Assembly (NCBI GenBank): GCA_937934275.1
Contig: CALHAM010000141.1
Location: 1 to 32,383, forward strand
DNA from: an uncultured Saprospiraceae bacterium
GTDB lineage: Bacteria > Bacteroidota > Bacteroidia > Chitinophagales > Saprospiraceae
Length of the DNA stretch: 32,383 bases
Reading direction: 5' to 3'
Shown here: positions 6,801 through 32,383 of the stretch, piece after piece
How positions within the stretch are numbered: the stretch's first letter is position 1
How the letters are laid out: every line of letters starts with the position of its first letter
The notes under the pieces: model-generated
Told to the model about the DNA's origin: nothing
Seen by the model: only the letters and a program-made list of their open reading frames with translations
Database searches by the model: none
Program-made: the position numbers and the translations under genes

Positions 6801-7586
6801 TTATTTTTTTCTGTTAACAATAGGAAAAGTTAGACCAGCATTCAGAAGGCGACCGGCATTCCTGCGCTTTTCAAAATCCTTTATCTCGCGAGTATTCGAA
6901 TAAATAGCGGTAAGTCCCATTGAGGCATTGAGGCCCAAAAAGATGCGAAGGCCGCTCTGGGTTTGGTATTTCAAGCCGCCGCCGCTCCAGGCTCCCAGTT
7001 CTGCTCTGTTTTCTTTGATGCCAACGTCGCTGCCGGTTGAAAATTCATAAGGAGCCTCAAAGCTCAAGGAGTATAATCCTCCGAAATCGTAATTCTCATC
7101 GTAGGGATTGTTTATCATTTGGTACACGCTACCCGTCCATTTGCCACTGACCCAGTAAGCTCCATAGATGCCGATACCGATGTAGGGCGAAAACTTCGAG
7201 TCGAACAGGTCGATAGCAATACCCAACGGTAAATTGACATAGGTACGCATTAGCGTAAAGTCGTTTACACCTGCGAACTTCTGAAACGTTTCAACCTTTT
7301 GCCCGCGCTGTAGGACATTCAACCCGAAGGTAGCCAACACGCGTGGCCCCAATGAATAATGTACCTCTAAACCCGGATACTGCCAGCTGCCGACAACGCT
7401 GTAGCGCCAAAGAGGTTTGTCGGAGAAGTCCATCTCAACGGTATTTGCCAGTGCTCCAAAACTCAGTCCGATATGCCATCCTGTAGCCTCTTTGGGCCGA
7501 GTTGGCTGCACAGCCCTACTGGGTTGGCTCAAACATATGGAGCACCCTGACAGAAACACCAATAGAAGAACGATAGAAGGTTTCAT
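6801..7586 (-). CDS. outer-membrane beta-barrel-like protein
   Basis: A 261-residue protein with a hydrophobic N-terminus (MKPSIVLLLVFLSGCSICLSQ) that could be cleaved by signal peptidase I after LSQ or lipidated at the LSGC Cys. The rest is a series of amphipathic strands rich in Gly, Tyr and Trp (LEVHYSLGPRVLATFGLNV, LPLGIAIDLFDSKFSPYIGIGIYGAYW, SGLRIFLGLNASMGLTAIY). This pattern is typical of small Bacteroidota OMP-beta-barrel proteins (about 8 strands). The function is unknown. It is the first gene of a two-gene operon with the S41 lipoprotein, so the two may act together at the outer membrane. Confidence 0.75.
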   Translation of the reverse strand: MKPSIVLLLVFLSGCSICLSQPSRAVQPTRPKEATGWHIGLSFGALANTVEMDFSDKPLWRYSVVGSWQYPGLEVHYSLGPRVLATFGLNVLQRGQKVETFQKFAGVNDFTLMRTYVNLPLGIAIDLFDSKFSPYIGIGIYGAYWVSGKWTGSVYQMINNPYDENYDFGGLYSLSFEAPYEFSTGSDVGIKENRAELGAWSGGGLKYQTQSGLRIFLGLNASMGLTAIYSNTREIKDFEKRRNAGRLLNAGLTFPIVNRKK

Positions 7587-8293
7587 ATTGCTGAAAAATT
7601 TAGTTTAAACATTGTTTATCGTTCCAAAGGAGGAAGAAAACTCTGGAGATGCAGGGTGGTTTTTCGCCTCTGCACCTGGGTAATTAGAAGGGATCTTTGG
7701 GTAATTCCTTAGCCGCTTGAATGCTGTAAGACTTACGGGATCGAACTTGCCCGCTTGTTTTTGAGAAGTATGTGGACCTTTCGTTCTGTAAAGAGCTCTA
7801 TTGATAGAGGCTTCGCACCACTGAGGTTTTCTACTCCACGAGAGAAAGGGAAGTTTTGCCAAGTTGCCTCTTTGCCCGCTCAGCGGTGGAACAGAGTGAA
7901 CAAGGTAGTAGGGCGTGCACAAAAGTATTTCTGCATGCATGGTAAGTGACTTTTTTGCGAAGATGGGCTTCGGCGACCCTGCTTCTCAACGAAATGTGAC
8001 AACCCGTTCCTTTTTGAGGGTCAACAGGCTAGAGGCAAATAGCATTCTGTAGGCTACCTCTTTTTCTGAGAAAGGAGGTTGTCAAAGCCTTTCGCAAAAG
8101 AGACGACACAGAAATCCATCTGAAGGTCTGAAAAGGAGGGCCAACCTTCTGTTTGGCAACCGCGGAAGGCCATGGTGCGAGTTTATGGGCAGTGCAGTTG
8201 CAACAGAGGTTTCGCAGGTGGCAAGGCGCGACTTTCGAGCGGCAGCTGTTGTTTTTAGTCGGGTCGTTGAAAATCTCGACGGCTATCTACTTT
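7587..8293. other. 707-bp stretch without a supported gene
   Basis: An AT-leaning region between the barrel gene promoter side and the 3' end of the TolC-like gene. A 111-codon open frame on the minus strand (7605-7940) has no recognisable family, no signal and an unusual composition rich in Pro, Ser and Lys; I do not call it. An imperfect inverted repeat (AGAGG at 8031-8035, TAGC at 8040-8043, GCTA at 8053-8056, CCTCT at 8057-8061) is followed by TTTTCT and may be a weak plus-strand hairpin. Otherwise I see nothing I can support. Confidence 0.5.
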
Positions 8294-27016: not shown

Positions 27017-28104
27017 GCTTGGCCGATTTGCTCTAAGCTGCGCCGCCAGCGGTGCTCGGCTTCGACAGCCGTCAGGGTTGTTTTGCGCAGGGAATACGGC
27101 GTTTGGCCGGGGATAGTCGCGATGACTTGGCCATTGAGGTTCTTCTTGTCCTGTTGCATCGAGGCCCACACTTCGGGCCAAGGCACTTGGGCTAAGGGCA
27201 CTGGCGGCAGCAACGGCCGAAGCAGGGCCAGGTCGGCGGGCGAAGGGTCTTCCAGTTCGCATAACATCCCTACAGCAATGGCCTCGCCATGGGTAATGGG
27301 TTGCTCGAGACGGAGGAAATAGCTCTCCAGCCCGTGGCCGAAGGTGTGGCCGAAGTTGAGCAGGGCGCGCAGGCCTCGCTCGAGCGGGTCTTCGTTTACG
27401 ATGCGCGCCTTGACGGCGATGGAGGCCCGCAGTAGGCGCTGCCATTCCTCCGGAGGGATGGCCTGCGGAGTGTTCATGAGGTTTGGCTGCTGTTGCAAGT
27501 ATTGCAACAGTTTGGGTGCTCCGATGTAAGCGTGTTTGACCACTTCGGCCAGCCCGCTGTGCCATTCGCGCGGCGGTAGCGTTTGCAGAAAAGTGGGGTC
27601 GGCAAAGACGGCTACTGGCTGGCAGAAGGCGCCGACGGCATTTTTAATCCCCCTAAAGTCTAGCCCTACTTTTCCGCCCAAGGCGGCATCGGTCATGGCC
27701 AGCAGAGTAGTAGGGATGTGGGCAAAGGCGATGCCGCGCTTGTAGGTGGCTGCACAAAAGCCGCCCACGTCGCCTAAGGCACCGCCGCCGAAAATGAGCG
27801 CAAGCCCTCGGCGGTCGAGTTGGGCCTCCAGCATGGCTCCCCAAAGCGCTTGGCAGGTATCCAGCGTCTTTAAAGCCTCCATGCCCCCCGGCACATAGGA
27901 CCCACCCGCCGGCATCACATAACGGGGCGCTTGGCCCATGGTGGCCTCTACAGCCTCTCCCCAATGCGTGTAAACGTTGCCGTCAATCATGCCGAAAAGA
28001 CCCGAGTAGGCCGCCCGATGCTCCTGCAACCACGGCAGCAGCGTCTGGGCAAGTGGGCCAAGCCACACTGGGCTGCCCGCCACCACAAAGTCTGGCGCGC
28101 TCAT
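27013..28104 (-). CDS. aroB: 3-dehydroquinate synthase
   Basis: A 363-residue enzyme of the shikimate pathway that turns DAHP into 3-dehydroquinate using NAD and zinc. The NAD-binding GGGALGDVGGFCAATYKRG (106-124), PTTLLAMTDAALGGKVGLDF (131-150) and zinc ligands Glu187 (LAEVVKHA), His253 (NFGHTFGHG) and His272 (THGEAIAVGM) are all present. Its ATG shares four bases (ATGA, 28101-28104) with the stop of the histidine kinase gene, so its translation is coupled to a signalling gene, an unusual partner for aroB. Confidence 0.96.
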   Translation of the reverse strand: MSAPDFVVAGSPVWLGPLAQTLLPWLQEHRAAYSGLFGMIDGNVYTHWGEAVEATMGQAPRYVMPAGGSYVPGGMEALKTLDTCQALWGAMLEAQLDRRGLALIFGGGALGDVGGFCAATYKRGIAFAHIPTTLLAMTDAALGGKVGLDFRGIKNAVGAFCQPVAVFADPTFLQTLPPREWHSGLAEVVKHAYIGAPKLLQYLQQQPNLMNTPQAIPPEEWQRLLRASIAVKARIVNEDPLERGLRALLNFGHTFGHGLESYFLRLEQPITHGEAIAVGMLCELEDPSPADLALLRPLLPPVPLAQVPWPEVWASMQQDKKNLNGQVIATIPGQTPYSLRKTTLTAVEAEHRWRRSLEQIGQA

Positions 28105-29396
28105 GCGTGTCCGTTGGCTGAAGGCATCTGAATGCTCACCGTAGTGCCACGCCCGGGCTCACTGTCTAAGTGCAGCTTCCAGTGGTGCTCGCGGCAGATG
28201 GTCTGCACGTAGTACAGGCCCAAGCCAAAACCCTTGACGTTGTGCACATTGCCCGTAGGCACGCGATAGAACTTCTTAAAGACGTGTCGCTGGTGTTCAG
28301 GTGCAATGCCGATGCCGTGGTCTCTGACGGCTAACACCAAATGGCTGTTGACGGCAGTGAGTTCCACCTCAATATGCGGAGGGCTTTTGGAGTACTTGAT
28401 GCCGTTGTCCACCAAGTTGTGCAGGATGTTGGTCAAGTGCAAGCGGTCGGCCCGCACCCAGGCGTGGTCGGTGTGCAATTTCAGCTCGAGCTTGCCTTTC
28501 TTCTCCTCCGTTTTCATTTCTAACGAAGGTTGTAAGCCCTTGATGAGGTCGGCCAAATCCACCTCTTCCAAGTTGAGCTTCAGGTGTTCGCGCTCGATCT
28601 TGGCCAACTGCAGCACTTTTTCCACTTGGGTGTTGAGGCGCATGATTTGCTCCTTGATGATGCCCGCATAGCGCAACAGGCGCGCATCGCTCTGAATGAG
28701 CGGATTTTGCAAAAAGACGTCGGTCGAAATGTTGATGGTCGCTATCGGAGTTTTAAACTCGTGTGTCATGTTGTTGATAAAATCTCGCTGCAGCTCCGAC
28801 AGGCGCTTTTGCTGCAAAATGACACCAATGGTATAGATAAAGAACAACACCGCTAAAAGCACCAACGCCGTAAAGGCGAGCACCACCCACATGTTGGCCA
28901 TGAGGTTCACCGCCTTGTTCGGAAAGCGCACGCCGAAATAGTAGATAAAGTCGCTGTCGTGATGGGCAGGCAGCGGCAGGTGAAGCTGCGTGCTGGCGTC
29001 GCCCTCTGCCTTCTTTTCGTATTTGACCAAGCGGCCGCTAACCATCTGATTGCTGGAGCAGTCGAAAATGCCGTACTGAAAGTCTTCGCGCAGGCCTTGT
29101 TGTTCAAAAGCCTTCTTCAAATAAAACTCCAGCGAGGCCTCGTCAAATTGGTTGTTGATGTTGACGACGTAGTAGTTAGACTGCACCCTCTGGATGAGGT
29201 TAGCGTCTTCGAGCACAAACAAGCCCACGCGTGCTAAGTCGCGCGCCGTTTCTAAAAGCGCTTGCCGAACGCGGCGGTCAAAGTCCTGCTCCTGCAAATC
29301 CCACATGCGCATGACCCAGTAGGTCTGCACCGAAATCAGGCCTATCACCGTCAGCGTGCCCAATAAAATAACCCTTCGAATCGCGCGGTTCGTCAT
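28101..29396 (-). CDS. sensor histidine kinase, membrane-bound
   Basis: A 431-residue kinase. Transmembrane helices lie at about 8-27 and 169-191 and enclose a sensor region of about 140 residues without a recognised fold. The H-box is FINNMTHEFKTPI (phospho-acceptor His212), the N-box HNLVDNGIKYS, the G1 box RDHGIGIAP (Asp359) and the G2 box GFGLGLYY. All residues needed for autophosphorylation are present. No response regulator gene is adjacent: downstream is aroB, overlapping by 4 nt, and upstream is a divergent TIR gene. TATGTTTG on the minus strand at 29482-29489 is a likely -7 element. Confidence 0.93.
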   Translation of the reverse strand: MTNRAIRRVILLGTLTVIGLISVQTYWVMRMWDLQEQDFDRRVRQALLETARDLARVGLFVLEDANLIQRVQSNYYVVNINNQFDEASLEFYLKKAFEQQGLREDFQYGIFDCSSNQMVSGRLVKYEKKAEGDASTQLHLPLPAHHDSDFIYYFGVRFPNKAVNLMANMWVVLAFTALVLLAVLFFIYTIGVILQQKRLSELQRDFINNMTHEFKTPIATINISTDVFLQNPLIQSDARLLRYAGIIKEQIMRLNTQVEKVLQLAKIEREHLKLNLEEVDLADLIKGLQPSLEMKTEEKKGKLELKLHTDHAWVRADRLHLTNILHNLVDNGIKYSKSPPHIEVELTAVNSHLVLAVRDHGIGIAPEHQRHVFKKFYRVPTGNVHNVKGFGLGLYYVQTICREHHWKLHLDSEPGRGTTVSIQMPSANGHA

Positions 29397-29702: not shown

Positions 29703-30902
29703 ATGAGCCACAAAAACACACAAATATTCATCGCCTACGCGCGCAAAGATGCCGAATTGCTAAACCAATTTCGGACGCACCTGCGCCCCTTGGAGCGTGC
29801 GGGTAAGGTTCAGGTCTGGTACGACGGCCTCATCGAGCCGGGCGCCGTGTGGGAGGCGCAGATCAAAAAAAACCTGCACGCCGCAGACATCGTCTTGCTC
29901 ATGGTGAGCGCCGACGCCATTGCGTCGGATTACTTCTACGACAAAGAAGTGGCCGACGCTTTGGAGCGCCACCGCGCGGGCGCTGCCCGCGTCGTGCCCA
30001 TGATCCTGCGCCCCTGCGCCTGGTATGCTACGCCGTTGGCCGAGCTGCAAGCCATACCCCAAAACGGCAAAGCCGTCACCACCTGGGCCGACCGCGACGA
30101 GGCCTACGCCGACGCCGCCCAATCGCTCCTGAACATAGTCAACAACATCGAACAGCACAAGAGAGAACAAGCCGAAGAAGAACAGCGCCGCCGCCAAGGT
30201 GAGGAGGAGCGTCGCCTGCGCCAAGCCGAAGAACAGCGCCGCCAGAAAGAAGCCGCCGAGGCCGAGCGCCGAAGAGCCGCCGAAGAACAGCGCCGCCAGA
30301 AAGAAGCCGCCGAGCGCAAGGCCTTAGAGGAACGACAAGCTCAATACGCGTACCACATGGCTGAGGCTCGCAAGCTCCTGCGCCGCCGCGATGGGTTGTC
30401 GGCCATCCATCACGCGCAGGCCGCGCTGGCCATAGAGCCCGGCGACGCCGACGCTTTGCAGCTCATCCGCCAGGCCGAACACCTACGCCTTCAACCGCCG
30501 CCGCCCCAACCGCCCTACCTGCGCTGGGCTGCCATCGGCATCGGCGCCCTGCTGGCACTCTTCCTCATTGCCAGAGCCATTGGCGGCGGTGGCGGCGAAG
30601 ATGCAGCCGCGCAAGCCTATCGGGAAGCCTGGCGACAGGCTGAAGCAGAAAGTACGCTGCCCGCGTGGAAGGCTTTCTTGGCGCAATATCCCGACGGCGA
30701 GCGCTGGGAAGCAGCCCAGCAACAATTGGACAGCTTAGAAAACCAACGCAACGCCTTGCTGAACGATGCAGCGGTGCTCGCCGAAGCAGGTGTGACGGAA
30801 GCAGCTTGCGAAAACCTGCGCGCCGCGCTGCGCATAGACCCTTCAGACCGCGACATACAGCGGCGCATAACGCAAATGGGCTGCCCGTCATTGAAAAAAT
30901 AA
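29703..30902 (+). CDS. membrane-anchored TIR-domain protein with coiled coil and C-terminal repeat region
   Basis: A 399-residue protein without signal peptide. Residues 1-145 are a TIR domain: QIFIAYARKDAELLNQF, VWYDGLIEPGAVWEAQI, ADIVLLMVSADAIASDYFYDKEV. Glu82 in DKEV fits the catalytic Glu of NAD-consuming TIR enzymes. Residues 150-215 are a highly charged coiled coil rich in Glu, Gln and Arg with a 54-nt internal duplication. A TPR-like helix pair follows (215-262), then a Pro-rich hinge, one transmembrane helix (about 274-293) and a non-cytosolic tail with another helical module. The TIR should face the cytosol. It is 18 nt upstream of the FGE-like gene and clearly co-transcribed. An effector role in defence or conflict is inferred. 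Confidence 0.88.
   Translation: MSHKNTQIFIAYARKDAELLNQFRTHLRPLERAGKVQVWYDGLIEPGAVWEAQIKKNLHAADIVLLMVSADAIASDYFYDKEVADALERHRAGAARVVPMILRPCAWYATPLAELQAIPQNGKAVTTWADRDEAYADAAQSLLNIVNNIEQHKREQAEEEQRRRQGEEERRLRQAEEQRRQKEAAEAERRRAAEEQRRQKEAAERKALEERQAQYAYHMAEARKLLRRRDGLSAIHHAQAALAIEPGDADALQLIRQAEHLRLQPPPPQPPYLRWAAIGIGALLALFLIARAIGGGGGEDAAAQAYREAWRQAEAESTLPAWKAFLAQYPDGERWEAAQQQLDSLENQRNALLNDAAVLAEAGVTEAACENLRAALRIDPSDRDIQRRITQMGCPSLKK
30225..30314 (+). repeat. 36-nt repeat, two identical copies 54 nt apart, inside the TIR gene
   Basis: 30225-30260 and 30279-30314 are identical over 36 nt, and the 54-nt offset keeps the frame (18 codons). They encode AEEQRRQKEAAE twice in the coiled coil. A shorter related copy occurs near 30174. 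This suggests slippage or unequal recombination that changes coiled-coil length. Confidence 0.85.
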
Positions 30903-30920
30903 CACAAAAATAAATAACAT

Positions 30921-32261
30921 ATGAACCATTCTTTTCTACCCTTTCTGCTTCCGGCGCTGCGCCCTCAACGGCTTTGCGCGCTCTGCTGTCTCCTCTGGCT
31001 TGCTACGCCGGCAATATCCCAGCAGACGTCTTGTTGCGAGCCAATCAAGAGGCAAGGTCAGACCGCATTCGATCAAAAAAACTACGATAAGGCCATCGAG
31101 ATCTGGTCTCAAGGTAAAAAATGCTCCGATGCCGCCAAGTGCCCCGATCTTGATGACCTCATTAAAAAAGCCCAAGTCGAAAAACAAAAAAATGCGGCTG
31201 CAATAGAGCAAAAACGAAAGAACGAGCAAGACCGCCAGCGCCAAGCCGAGCAGCAGGCTGCTGCCGCCAAAGCTTGCGACGACGCCTATGCCGTCGCCAA
31301 GGCCGCCGACACCAAAGCTGCTTACGAGACTTTCCTCAGGCGGTATCCCGACTGCCGACACGCCGCTGCCGCCCAAAAGCGCATAAATGAAATAGCAAAA
31401 CCTGTGCCGCCCACACCTTCCCCTACCCCCGCCCCCCCGCGCCCCGACATGGTCTTCATCCGCGGCGGTACTTTTTGGATGGGCTGCACGTCGGAGCAGC
31501 GGGATTGTTATAGTGGTGAGTCGCCTACGTTTGAGGCGACGGTGTCGGATTTTTATTTGGGTCGGTACGAGGTGACGGTAAGGGAGTTCAAAGCGTTTGT
31601 AGATGCTACGGGTTACAAGACCGATGCCGAGAAGGAGGGTTGGAGTTGGGTTTGGACAGGTTCATGGGAGAAAAAAGAAGGCTTAAATTGGAAGCACGAT
31701 GCGAATGGTAACATTCGCCCTGCCTCGGAGATGAATCATCCGGTGTTGTATGTGAGTTGGTACGATGCGGTAGCGTACTGCAACTGGCTGAGCGAGCAGC
31801 AGGGTTTGCGGAAGGTTTATACGATCAGAGGGAGAGAGGTTGAGGCGGATTGGAGCGCGAACGGCTATCGCTTGCCGACGGAGGCGGAGTGGGAGTATGC
31901 GGCGCGTGGCGGCGCAGAATCCAAAGGGTACAAATATGCGGGCAGCAACAATTTGGATGAGGTGGCATGGTTTGGGGAAAACTCGGGCGGTAAAACGCGT
32001 CCTGTGGGAGAGAAAAAGCCCAACGAGTTGGGCTTGCACGACATGTCGGGCAATGTACGGGAGTGGTGTTGGGATTGGCGAGCTGCTTACACGTCGTCAT
32101 CGAAGACGAATCCGCGGGGACCGGAGAGTGGCTCCGACCGCGTGCTGCGCGGCGGCTCGTGGATCAACATCGCCGAGAGCTGTCGCGTGTCTTACCGGAG
32201 CAGCGACCTCCCGGTCAACCGCCTCGTCGTCATCGGTTTCCGCGTGGCTTTCGTCCCTTAG
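30921..32261 (+). CDS. exported FGE/SUMF1-like (C-type lectin fold) protein, probable DGR target
   Basis: A 446-residue protein. A signal peptide is cleaved near AIS (about residue 33), so the protein is exported. Residues 40-160 are helical and charged, with a YETFLRRYPDCRHAAAAQKRI module related to one in the TIR protein. After a Pro-rich linker (161-175), residues 176-446 form an FGE-sulfatase domain: FIRGGTFWMGC, YEVTVREFKAFV, PVLYVSWYDAVAYCNWLSE, GYRLPTEAEWEYAARGG, GLHDMSGNVREWCWDW, RVLRGGSW and GFRVAFVP. It lacks the CxxxxC pair of true formylglycine-generating enzymes, so a binding role is more likely. The tip (about 414-438) has the codon signature of a DGR variable region. Codon use changes sharply near 31490 and again near 32130. 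Confidence 0.9.
   Translation: MNHSFLPFLLPALRPQRLCALCCLLWLATPAISQQTSCCEPIKRQGQTAFDQKNYDKAIEIWSQGKKCSDAAKCPDLDDLIKKAQVEKQKNAAAIEQKRKNEQDRQRQAEQQAAAAKACDDAYAVAKAADTKAAYETFLRRYPDCRHAAAAQKRINEIAKPVPPTPSPTPAPPRPDMVFIRGGTFWMGCTSEQRDCYSGESPTFEATVSDFYLGRYEVTVREFKAFVDATGYKTDAEKEGWSWVWTGSWEKKEGLNWKHDANGNIRPASEMNHPVLYVSWYDAVAYCNWLSEQQGLRKVYTIRGREVEADWSANGYRLPTEAEWEYAARGGAESKGYKYAGSNNLDEVAWFGENSGGKTRPVGEKKPNELGLHDMSGNVREWCWDWRAAYTSSSKTNPRGPESGSDRVLRGGSWINIAESCRVSYRSSDLPVNRLVVIGFRVAFVP
32136..32249 (+). other. candidate DGR variable region at the 3' end of the FGE-like gene
   Basis: Between the conserved frames RVLRGGSW and GFRVA, the positions where known DGR-target relatives carry Asn in the template are here I, N, I, S, Y, S, S, D, L, V, N, L, V, V, and every one of these codons ends in C. 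This is what adenine-directed mutation of AAC codons produces. Fixed residues in between (CR, R, P, R) use other codons. Boundaries are approximate. The template repeat and reverse transcriptase would lie outside the window. Confidence 0.6.
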
Positions 32262-32322
32262 TTGGGTGGCTTGCTCATCTTGCCGTGCCCTGGAGCTAAG
32301 GGTAGCAGGCAGGTTAAGCGAG

Positions 32323-32383
32323 CCGGTGGCGGATCCTGGAGCGTCGGCTGCGGAGCGCCGACGGCGTAAGGATACGCTACCGG
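32323..32383 (+). other. long hairpin downstream of the candidate variable region, reaching the window edge
   Basis: CCGGTGGCGGATCCT (32323-32337) pairs with AGGATACGCTACCGG (32369-32383), with one G-U pair and one mismatch over 15. Inside, CGTCGGC (32342-32348) pairs with GCCGACG (32357-32363) around an 8-nt loop. There is no T-run, so a simple terminator is unlikely. It begins 61 nt after the stop codon. DGR targets often carry a hairpin or cruciform just after the variable region, which this may be. Confidence 0.6.

Follow-up and report, generated by a model that had tools for sequence, protein, structure and literature searches.

A probable retroelement-diversified tail in an FGE-fold protein encoded next to a TIR gene at a contig end of an uncultured Saprospiraceae bacterium

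Does the last gene of contig C141, from the draft genome of an uncultured Saprospiraceae bacterium, end in the variable region of a diversity-generating retroelement (DGR), and if so, where are the template and the reverse transcriptase (RT) that would rewrite it? In a DGR the RT makes mistakes at adenines as it copies a template repeat (TR), and the resulting cDNA takes the place of the variable region (VR); because these errors are directed at adenines, AAC codons of the template show up as NNC codons in the VR. The window, by which we mean the whole stretch of DNA analysed here, is the entire contig (32,383 nt) and belongs to a draft assembly of 3.43 Mb in 157 contigs, 99.93% complete. The gene in question encodes a protein with a formylglycine-generating enzyme (FGE) domain, starts 18 bases 3' of a TIR gene, and is the last one on the contig, which stops 122 bases past this gene and 235 bases past the start of its VR. 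The features discussed below are the following:

29703 to 30902, plus strand: gene for a TIR-domain protein of 399 aa (Pfam TIR_2, E 3.9e-14; hydropathy; homologous to the TIR genes found 5' of FGE-VR genes in two same-genus loci, L071 and L073)
30921 to 32261, plus strand: gene for an FGE-sulfatase/C-type-lectin-fold protein of 446 aa, the probable DGR variable (target) protein (Pfam FGE-sulfatase, E 3.8e-64; 2Y3C; structural model)
32148 to 32243, plus strand: probable VR, the block RGGSW...GFR (14 NNC codons within 32163-32231; register as in same-genus templates)
32324 to 32383, plus strand: imperfect palindrome of 60 bases, a candidate hairpin 3' of the VR (fold of 32259-32383)

None of 200 shuffles of 32259-32383 was equally stable (z -2.97), and no second good copy of this contig tail was found. 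At the 3' end of the VR, where a DGR would have its initiation-of-mutagenic-homing site, we noted a conserved GFR and, close by, the palindrome, which terminates precisely at the contig end. A different short hairpin (TTCGGCGAAGCCGAA) lies between VR and template in L071, L073, L077, and L083. The context of the TIR/FGE pair looks chromosomal, since the nine further window proteins scanned include a histidine kinase (gene at 28101-29396), DHQ synthase, MeaB, and Phe-tRNA synthetase; T9SS sorting domains and SprB repeats are also present among them and, together with a GldK-like gene on C41, suggest a member of the Bacteroidota.

The tail of the FGE gene (30921-32261) reads RGGSW-INI-AE-S-CRVS-Y-R-SSDL-P-VN-R-LVV-I-GFRVA. 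The original prediction had placed 14 clustered residues, all with NNC codons, between RGGSW and GFRVA, and frame and codons are exactly as it described them (14/14 listed positions, 32163-32231, within a block of 32 codons). Its statement that fixed residues use mixed codons is likewise accurate for the remaining 18 codons of the block, nine of which end in C. With the residues taken as fixed and codon usage drawn from 21 window ORFs (hand-picked, with the FGE ORF counted only as far as its tail), the probability of 14 NNC codons is 2.6e-6, and under the usage of the FGE domain of the same gene it is 3e-10. The strongest indication comes from Leu and Val, whose codons end in C in 5/5 cases versus 20-24% in window usage. 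The caveat already attached to the prediction, that the surroundings favour C at third positions, has some substance in view of the nine C-ending fixed codons, but the signature survives a shuffle confined to the 32-codon tail (P = 0.0017; 0.003 without TGG). When the 14-position mask was laid over the 21 window ORFs (8,400 placements), 14/14 was reached once, at the FGE tail, and 13/14 also once. Two FGE-domain genes elsewhere in the genome, on C71 and C41, scored 6/14 each under the same mask; a third, on C74, was left unscored as the motif did not fit. The NNC codon signature of the tail is therefore real.

Relatives provide the templates against which these positions can be read. An FGE relative was found at E 1e-20 in 37 of 60 genomes (own genome counted). 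Of the 41 same-genus genomes, 25 have RVT_1, a domain not confined to DGRs; among the other 16 are the own genome and its close relatives G010 and G035. Twenty stretches were fetched, 16 of them selected for an FGE match close to an RT match (16 of the 49 RVT_1 matches fall in these RT-FGE stretches), and a VR/TR repeat pair was present in all 16 of the RT-FGE loci so selected from the same genus. Over one 90-base window per locus in the 16 loci, 200 of 203 mismatches face a template A, a share inflated by the pair search, which required at least 80% template A. One pair was counted per locus, which at L080 was the best of three forward pairs and at L081 the pair of the FGE gene, taken over higher-scoring low-complexity pairs; pairs of L075 and L086 with 4-5 mismatches and a minus-strand pair of L080 were omitted from the count.

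Nine templates could be read in frame, e.g., RGGSWNNNPENCRVANRNRNNPNNRNNNIGFR; the other entries among the 18 pairs were eight with "no motif" and one in a shifted frame (L076). In the eight in-register templates (L083, with one extra residue, is excluded from this count) Asn accounts for 94 of the 112 residues at the 14 positions, with 8 to 13 per template, versus 5 of 144 at the other 18 positions. The NNC codons of the window tail therefore share their register with the Asn-codon sites of real same-genus templates. We base this on the RT-adjacent templates because a set of 25 template-like tails had been picked on those same 14 positions. Among 181 scanned FGE-type tails, 160 were without a template partner in the fetched stretch, a figure that includes the templates themselves and stretches ending early. 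In one stretch (L080, G034:C51) three FGE tails (4497, 5717, and 11333) share a single matching template, at 7514, and another (L086, G022:C34) holds two more 14/14 NNC FGE tails, at 7837 and 12944, with the template absent from the fetched stretch.

The FGE/C-type-lectin target fold with a C-terminal variable part, also proposed originally, is a point on which Pfam, the 2Y3C match, the model, and the fold matches agree. By sequence, the top PDB match (of 32) is TvpA of Treponema denticola (2Y3C, E 5.5e-41), which outranks the formylglycine-generating enzymes in an alignment that spans the variable block; TvpA is described as a member of a DGR in excerpts of PMC7159879. A model of 31443-32258, built from an alignment of 21 sequences including that of the window, reached a pLDDT of 92.3. 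In a fold search with this model FGE enzyme structures lead, and 2Y3C comes at rank 21 (TMq 0.79). The protein thus has an FGE/C-type-lectin fold of the TvpA/FGE type with the VR at its C-terminus.

The coupling of a TIR gene to a diversified FGE gene recurs in the genus. Apart from the window it was seen in L071 (G032) and L073 (G020), both with the order TIR, FGE-VR, template, bAvd, RT and with TIR and FGE proteins homologous to those of the window; in L274 (G016:C556), which is the L073 operon at about 91-92% identity; and, as a fusion, in L275 (G034:C17), where one chain of 652 aa comprises TIR, a hydrophobic segment, and FGE-VR. Next to this fusion lie an RT and, on the other strand, an inverted template; between that template and the assembled variable region of the fusion there is also a one-gap difference. 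In L071, L073, and L274, VR and RT share one strand, and the bAvd gene between template and RT is on the other. Ten further stretches were fetched, nine of them for TIR matches, and an RT was present in 2 of these 9, L274 and L275, both also with FGE. L278, L281, and L282 are TIR-FGE fusions with no RT seen in the stretch and with the hydrophobic segment missing, no FGE tail and no RT was seen in the TIR stretches of L277, L279, and L280, and the L276 stretch stops within the TIR gene. From these three fusions and three FGE- and RT-less stretches, it appears that neither the membrane layout nor the DGR is general for such TIR proteins.

The codon signature, the register shared with same-genus templates, the fold, and the recurring TIR-FGE pair together leave us with very little doubt that the FGE tail is the variable region of a DGR. 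That part of the original prediction, which had the gene diversified by a DGR with template and RT outside the window, is upheld by the fold (FGE/TvpA), by the operon context, and by same-genus pairs in the same register; the other part is not, as neither an adenine-bearing repeat nor a DGR-type RT turned up genome-wide in the 157-contig draft. A search of the own assembly for RVT_1 at E 0.001 gave no RT (the control was positive in 3 of 14 named genomes), and a profile of two DGR RTs reached a best E of 3.5 in it, while the same profile found RTs in G020, G032, and G018. No template-like repeat was present in the assembly, the best non-self match to the VR scoring 35.6 bits. Four of the 21 non-self DNA matches to the VR were inspected as candidate templates and rejected, those on C65, C69, and C40 as they hold no template-like repeat and that on C41 as it sits in another FGE-domain gene, itself best matched by GldK (a partial protein, just below the cut-off). 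A single bAvd query found no match in the own genome, nor in G018, whose DGR has another neighbour-gene type; it did detect targets in relatives. FGE-domain scans gave at most 52% identity among the matches listed from genome contigs (at least 80 loci) and at most 45% among those listed from viral contigs (at least 79 loci), with no same-species second copy in either, though near-own records may be omitted. The histidine kinase gene is followed, directly or past short ORFs, by a conserved gene of 391 aa in G018, G035, and G010. Bridging to the next contig by this synteny was tried and given up, the 391-aa gene of the own genome being located on C62 near the peptide chain release factor 1 gene with no DGR part seen adjoining.

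The related operons indicate where a template might be expected. It begins 217 bases after the VR start in L071 and 244 bases after it in L073. The L073 spacing would put the window template just past the contig end; with that of L071 it would already have begun inside the window, where none was seen. In L274 (1864-3522) the assembled FGE gene continues straight into an AAC-rich template and the VR-template interval is absent, which looks like the mis-assembly expected of near-identical repeats, although a real deletion is possible.

The explanation that we favour, and consider probable, is an intact DGR in the order TIR, FGE-VR, template, bAvd, RT, with the last three lost beyond the contig end. 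The TIR and FGE-VR genes, with their 18-base gap, would form one operon; the DGR would rewrite the C-terminal block of the FGE protein, AAC of the template becoming NNC at the 14 positions; and by homology the template, bAvd (on the opposite strand), and RT would follow just past the contig end and have been dropped in assembly. Template and RT would then exist in this strain and be active. With RT, template, and bAvd all missing from the matches in a 99.93%-complete draft, we infer this intact element by homology. A contig with template and RT should have assembled unless it was broken again, and it further counts against an intact cassette that many TIR genes of relatives have no nearby RT (2/9, see above) and that the close relatives G010 and G035 are also without RVT_1. 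An assembly gap is nevertheless likelier than a loss of the RT, itself possible, because the contig ends at about the template site of two related operons and because the L274 assembly is without its VR-template interval. Loss is the substance of a second explanation, unlikely in our view but deserving serious consideration, in which the tail was once written by a DGR, template and RT have since disappeared, and the last variant became fixed. The failure to find the three components in so complete a genome fits it well, as do the 16/41 same-genus genomes without RVT_1 (own, G010, and G035 included) and the 160/181 FGE-type tails without a partner, templates themselves and early-ending stretches included. 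It fits less well with a contig that stops about where the template would start, with the likewise absent interval in the assembly of the similar L274 operon, and with the intact 14/14 NNC, a pattern that drift should have eroded in a tail fixed for long.

Two other explanations appear far less plausible. Template and RT might act in trans from a plasmid, a phage, or a distant locus missing from this genome bin; excerpts of PMC7517822 describe cyanobacterial DGRs whose variable proteins are encoded remotely, and one of the three tails matching the L080 template lies 3.8 kb off. Such an arrangement is very unlikely here, given that the L071, L073, and L274 operons and the L275 fusion carry RT and template in cis and that no mobile-element gene was seen among the nine further window proteins scanned. 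It is harder still to credit that the tail is a normal FGE C-terminus among C-rich codons and owes nothing to a retroelement. Half of the fixed tail codons (9/18) do end in C, against 20% in the FGE domain of the gene, but the within-tail P of 0.0017, the single 14/14 in 8,400 mask placements, the coincidence of the 14 positions with those of real templates, and the 6/14 of the own FGE-domain genes on C71 and C41 all speak for something else.

What stands out most about this probable DGR target is the transmembrane TIR protein with which it is paired. The window TIR protein has an N-terminal TIR, a hydrophobic segment at aa 276-294 (about 30528-30584), and then a C-terminal part, and the TIR proteins of L071, L073, and L274 likewise have one hydrophobic segment. 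The FGE proteins of L071 and L073 open with signal-peptide-like stretches. The start of the window FGE protein is hydrophobic by eye, but its export is uncertain since no 19-mer at the N-terminus reaches the 1.6 cut-off. A natural reading is that the FGE domain would serve as a variable sensor with the TIR protein as its effector, in agreement with proposals for DGR-diversified FGE domains in excerpts of PMC10907252, PMC8195603, and PMC7159879. Tentatively, the two proteins may make up a split receptor, with the TIR protein in the inner membrane, its C-terminal part outside the cytoplasm, and an exported FGE-fold protein whose binding face the DGR rewrites. If true, this would resemble a Toll-type receptor with a self-randomising ectodomain, for which a one-chain counterpart (TIR, transmembrane segment, FGE-VR) is known in the same genus. 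Split or fused, the TIR coupling gives a compact pair on which one could test what DGR-diversified sensors recognise and whether they trigger TIR activity. The locus also illustrates that a DGR target can be recognised by its codon pattern and the templates of relatives in a draft genome without template and RT, so surveys requiring both repeats may undercount such targets.

Compared with known systems, the window resembles the Treponema denticola TvpA DGR (2Y3C) in its FGE/C-type-lectin fold and in the block between RGGSW and GFR; the comparison covers the target protein. The window target, unlike TvpA, sits behind a TIR gene, and its cassette is not in the assembly. TIR-bearing, transmembrane, and secreted DGR targets are already mentioned in excerpts of PMC10907252, PMC7159879, PMC8195603, and PMC7517822; a pair of membrane TIR and exported FGE-VR was not met in the excerpted literature on DGRs with TIR or transmembrane receptors. 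The DGRs of Thiohalocapsa PB-PSB1 diversify C-type-lectin/FGE domains in putative conflict systems, with one target having CHAT and TIR and with both cytoplasmic and periplasmic targets predicted, although in the same excerpts most have STAND NTPases or MoxR/vWA ternary systems as partners (PMC10907252); neither was seen among the window proteins scanned, the right-hand side lying beyond the contig. In cyanobacteria, as excerpted from PMC7517822, the variable proteins are multidomain, TIR-like domains are among the less common partners, and some targets have transmembrane segments or signal peptides; unlike the window pair, protein-kinase-type partners are commonest there and most targets are predicted to be cytosolic. 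Related as well are the FGS-domain conflict systems with a DGR, in which FGS/FGE is the proposed variable sensor next to an RT and a four-helix accessory protein (excerpts of PMC7159879 and PMC8195603). According to the latter excerpts, FGS and TIR can occur on the two proteins of one gene pair, and TIR/FGS effectors are found in a filamentous bacteroidete; a Death-like domain and a STAND NTPase link the two members of that pair, whereas here a membrane TIR goes together with a separate or fused FGE-VR.
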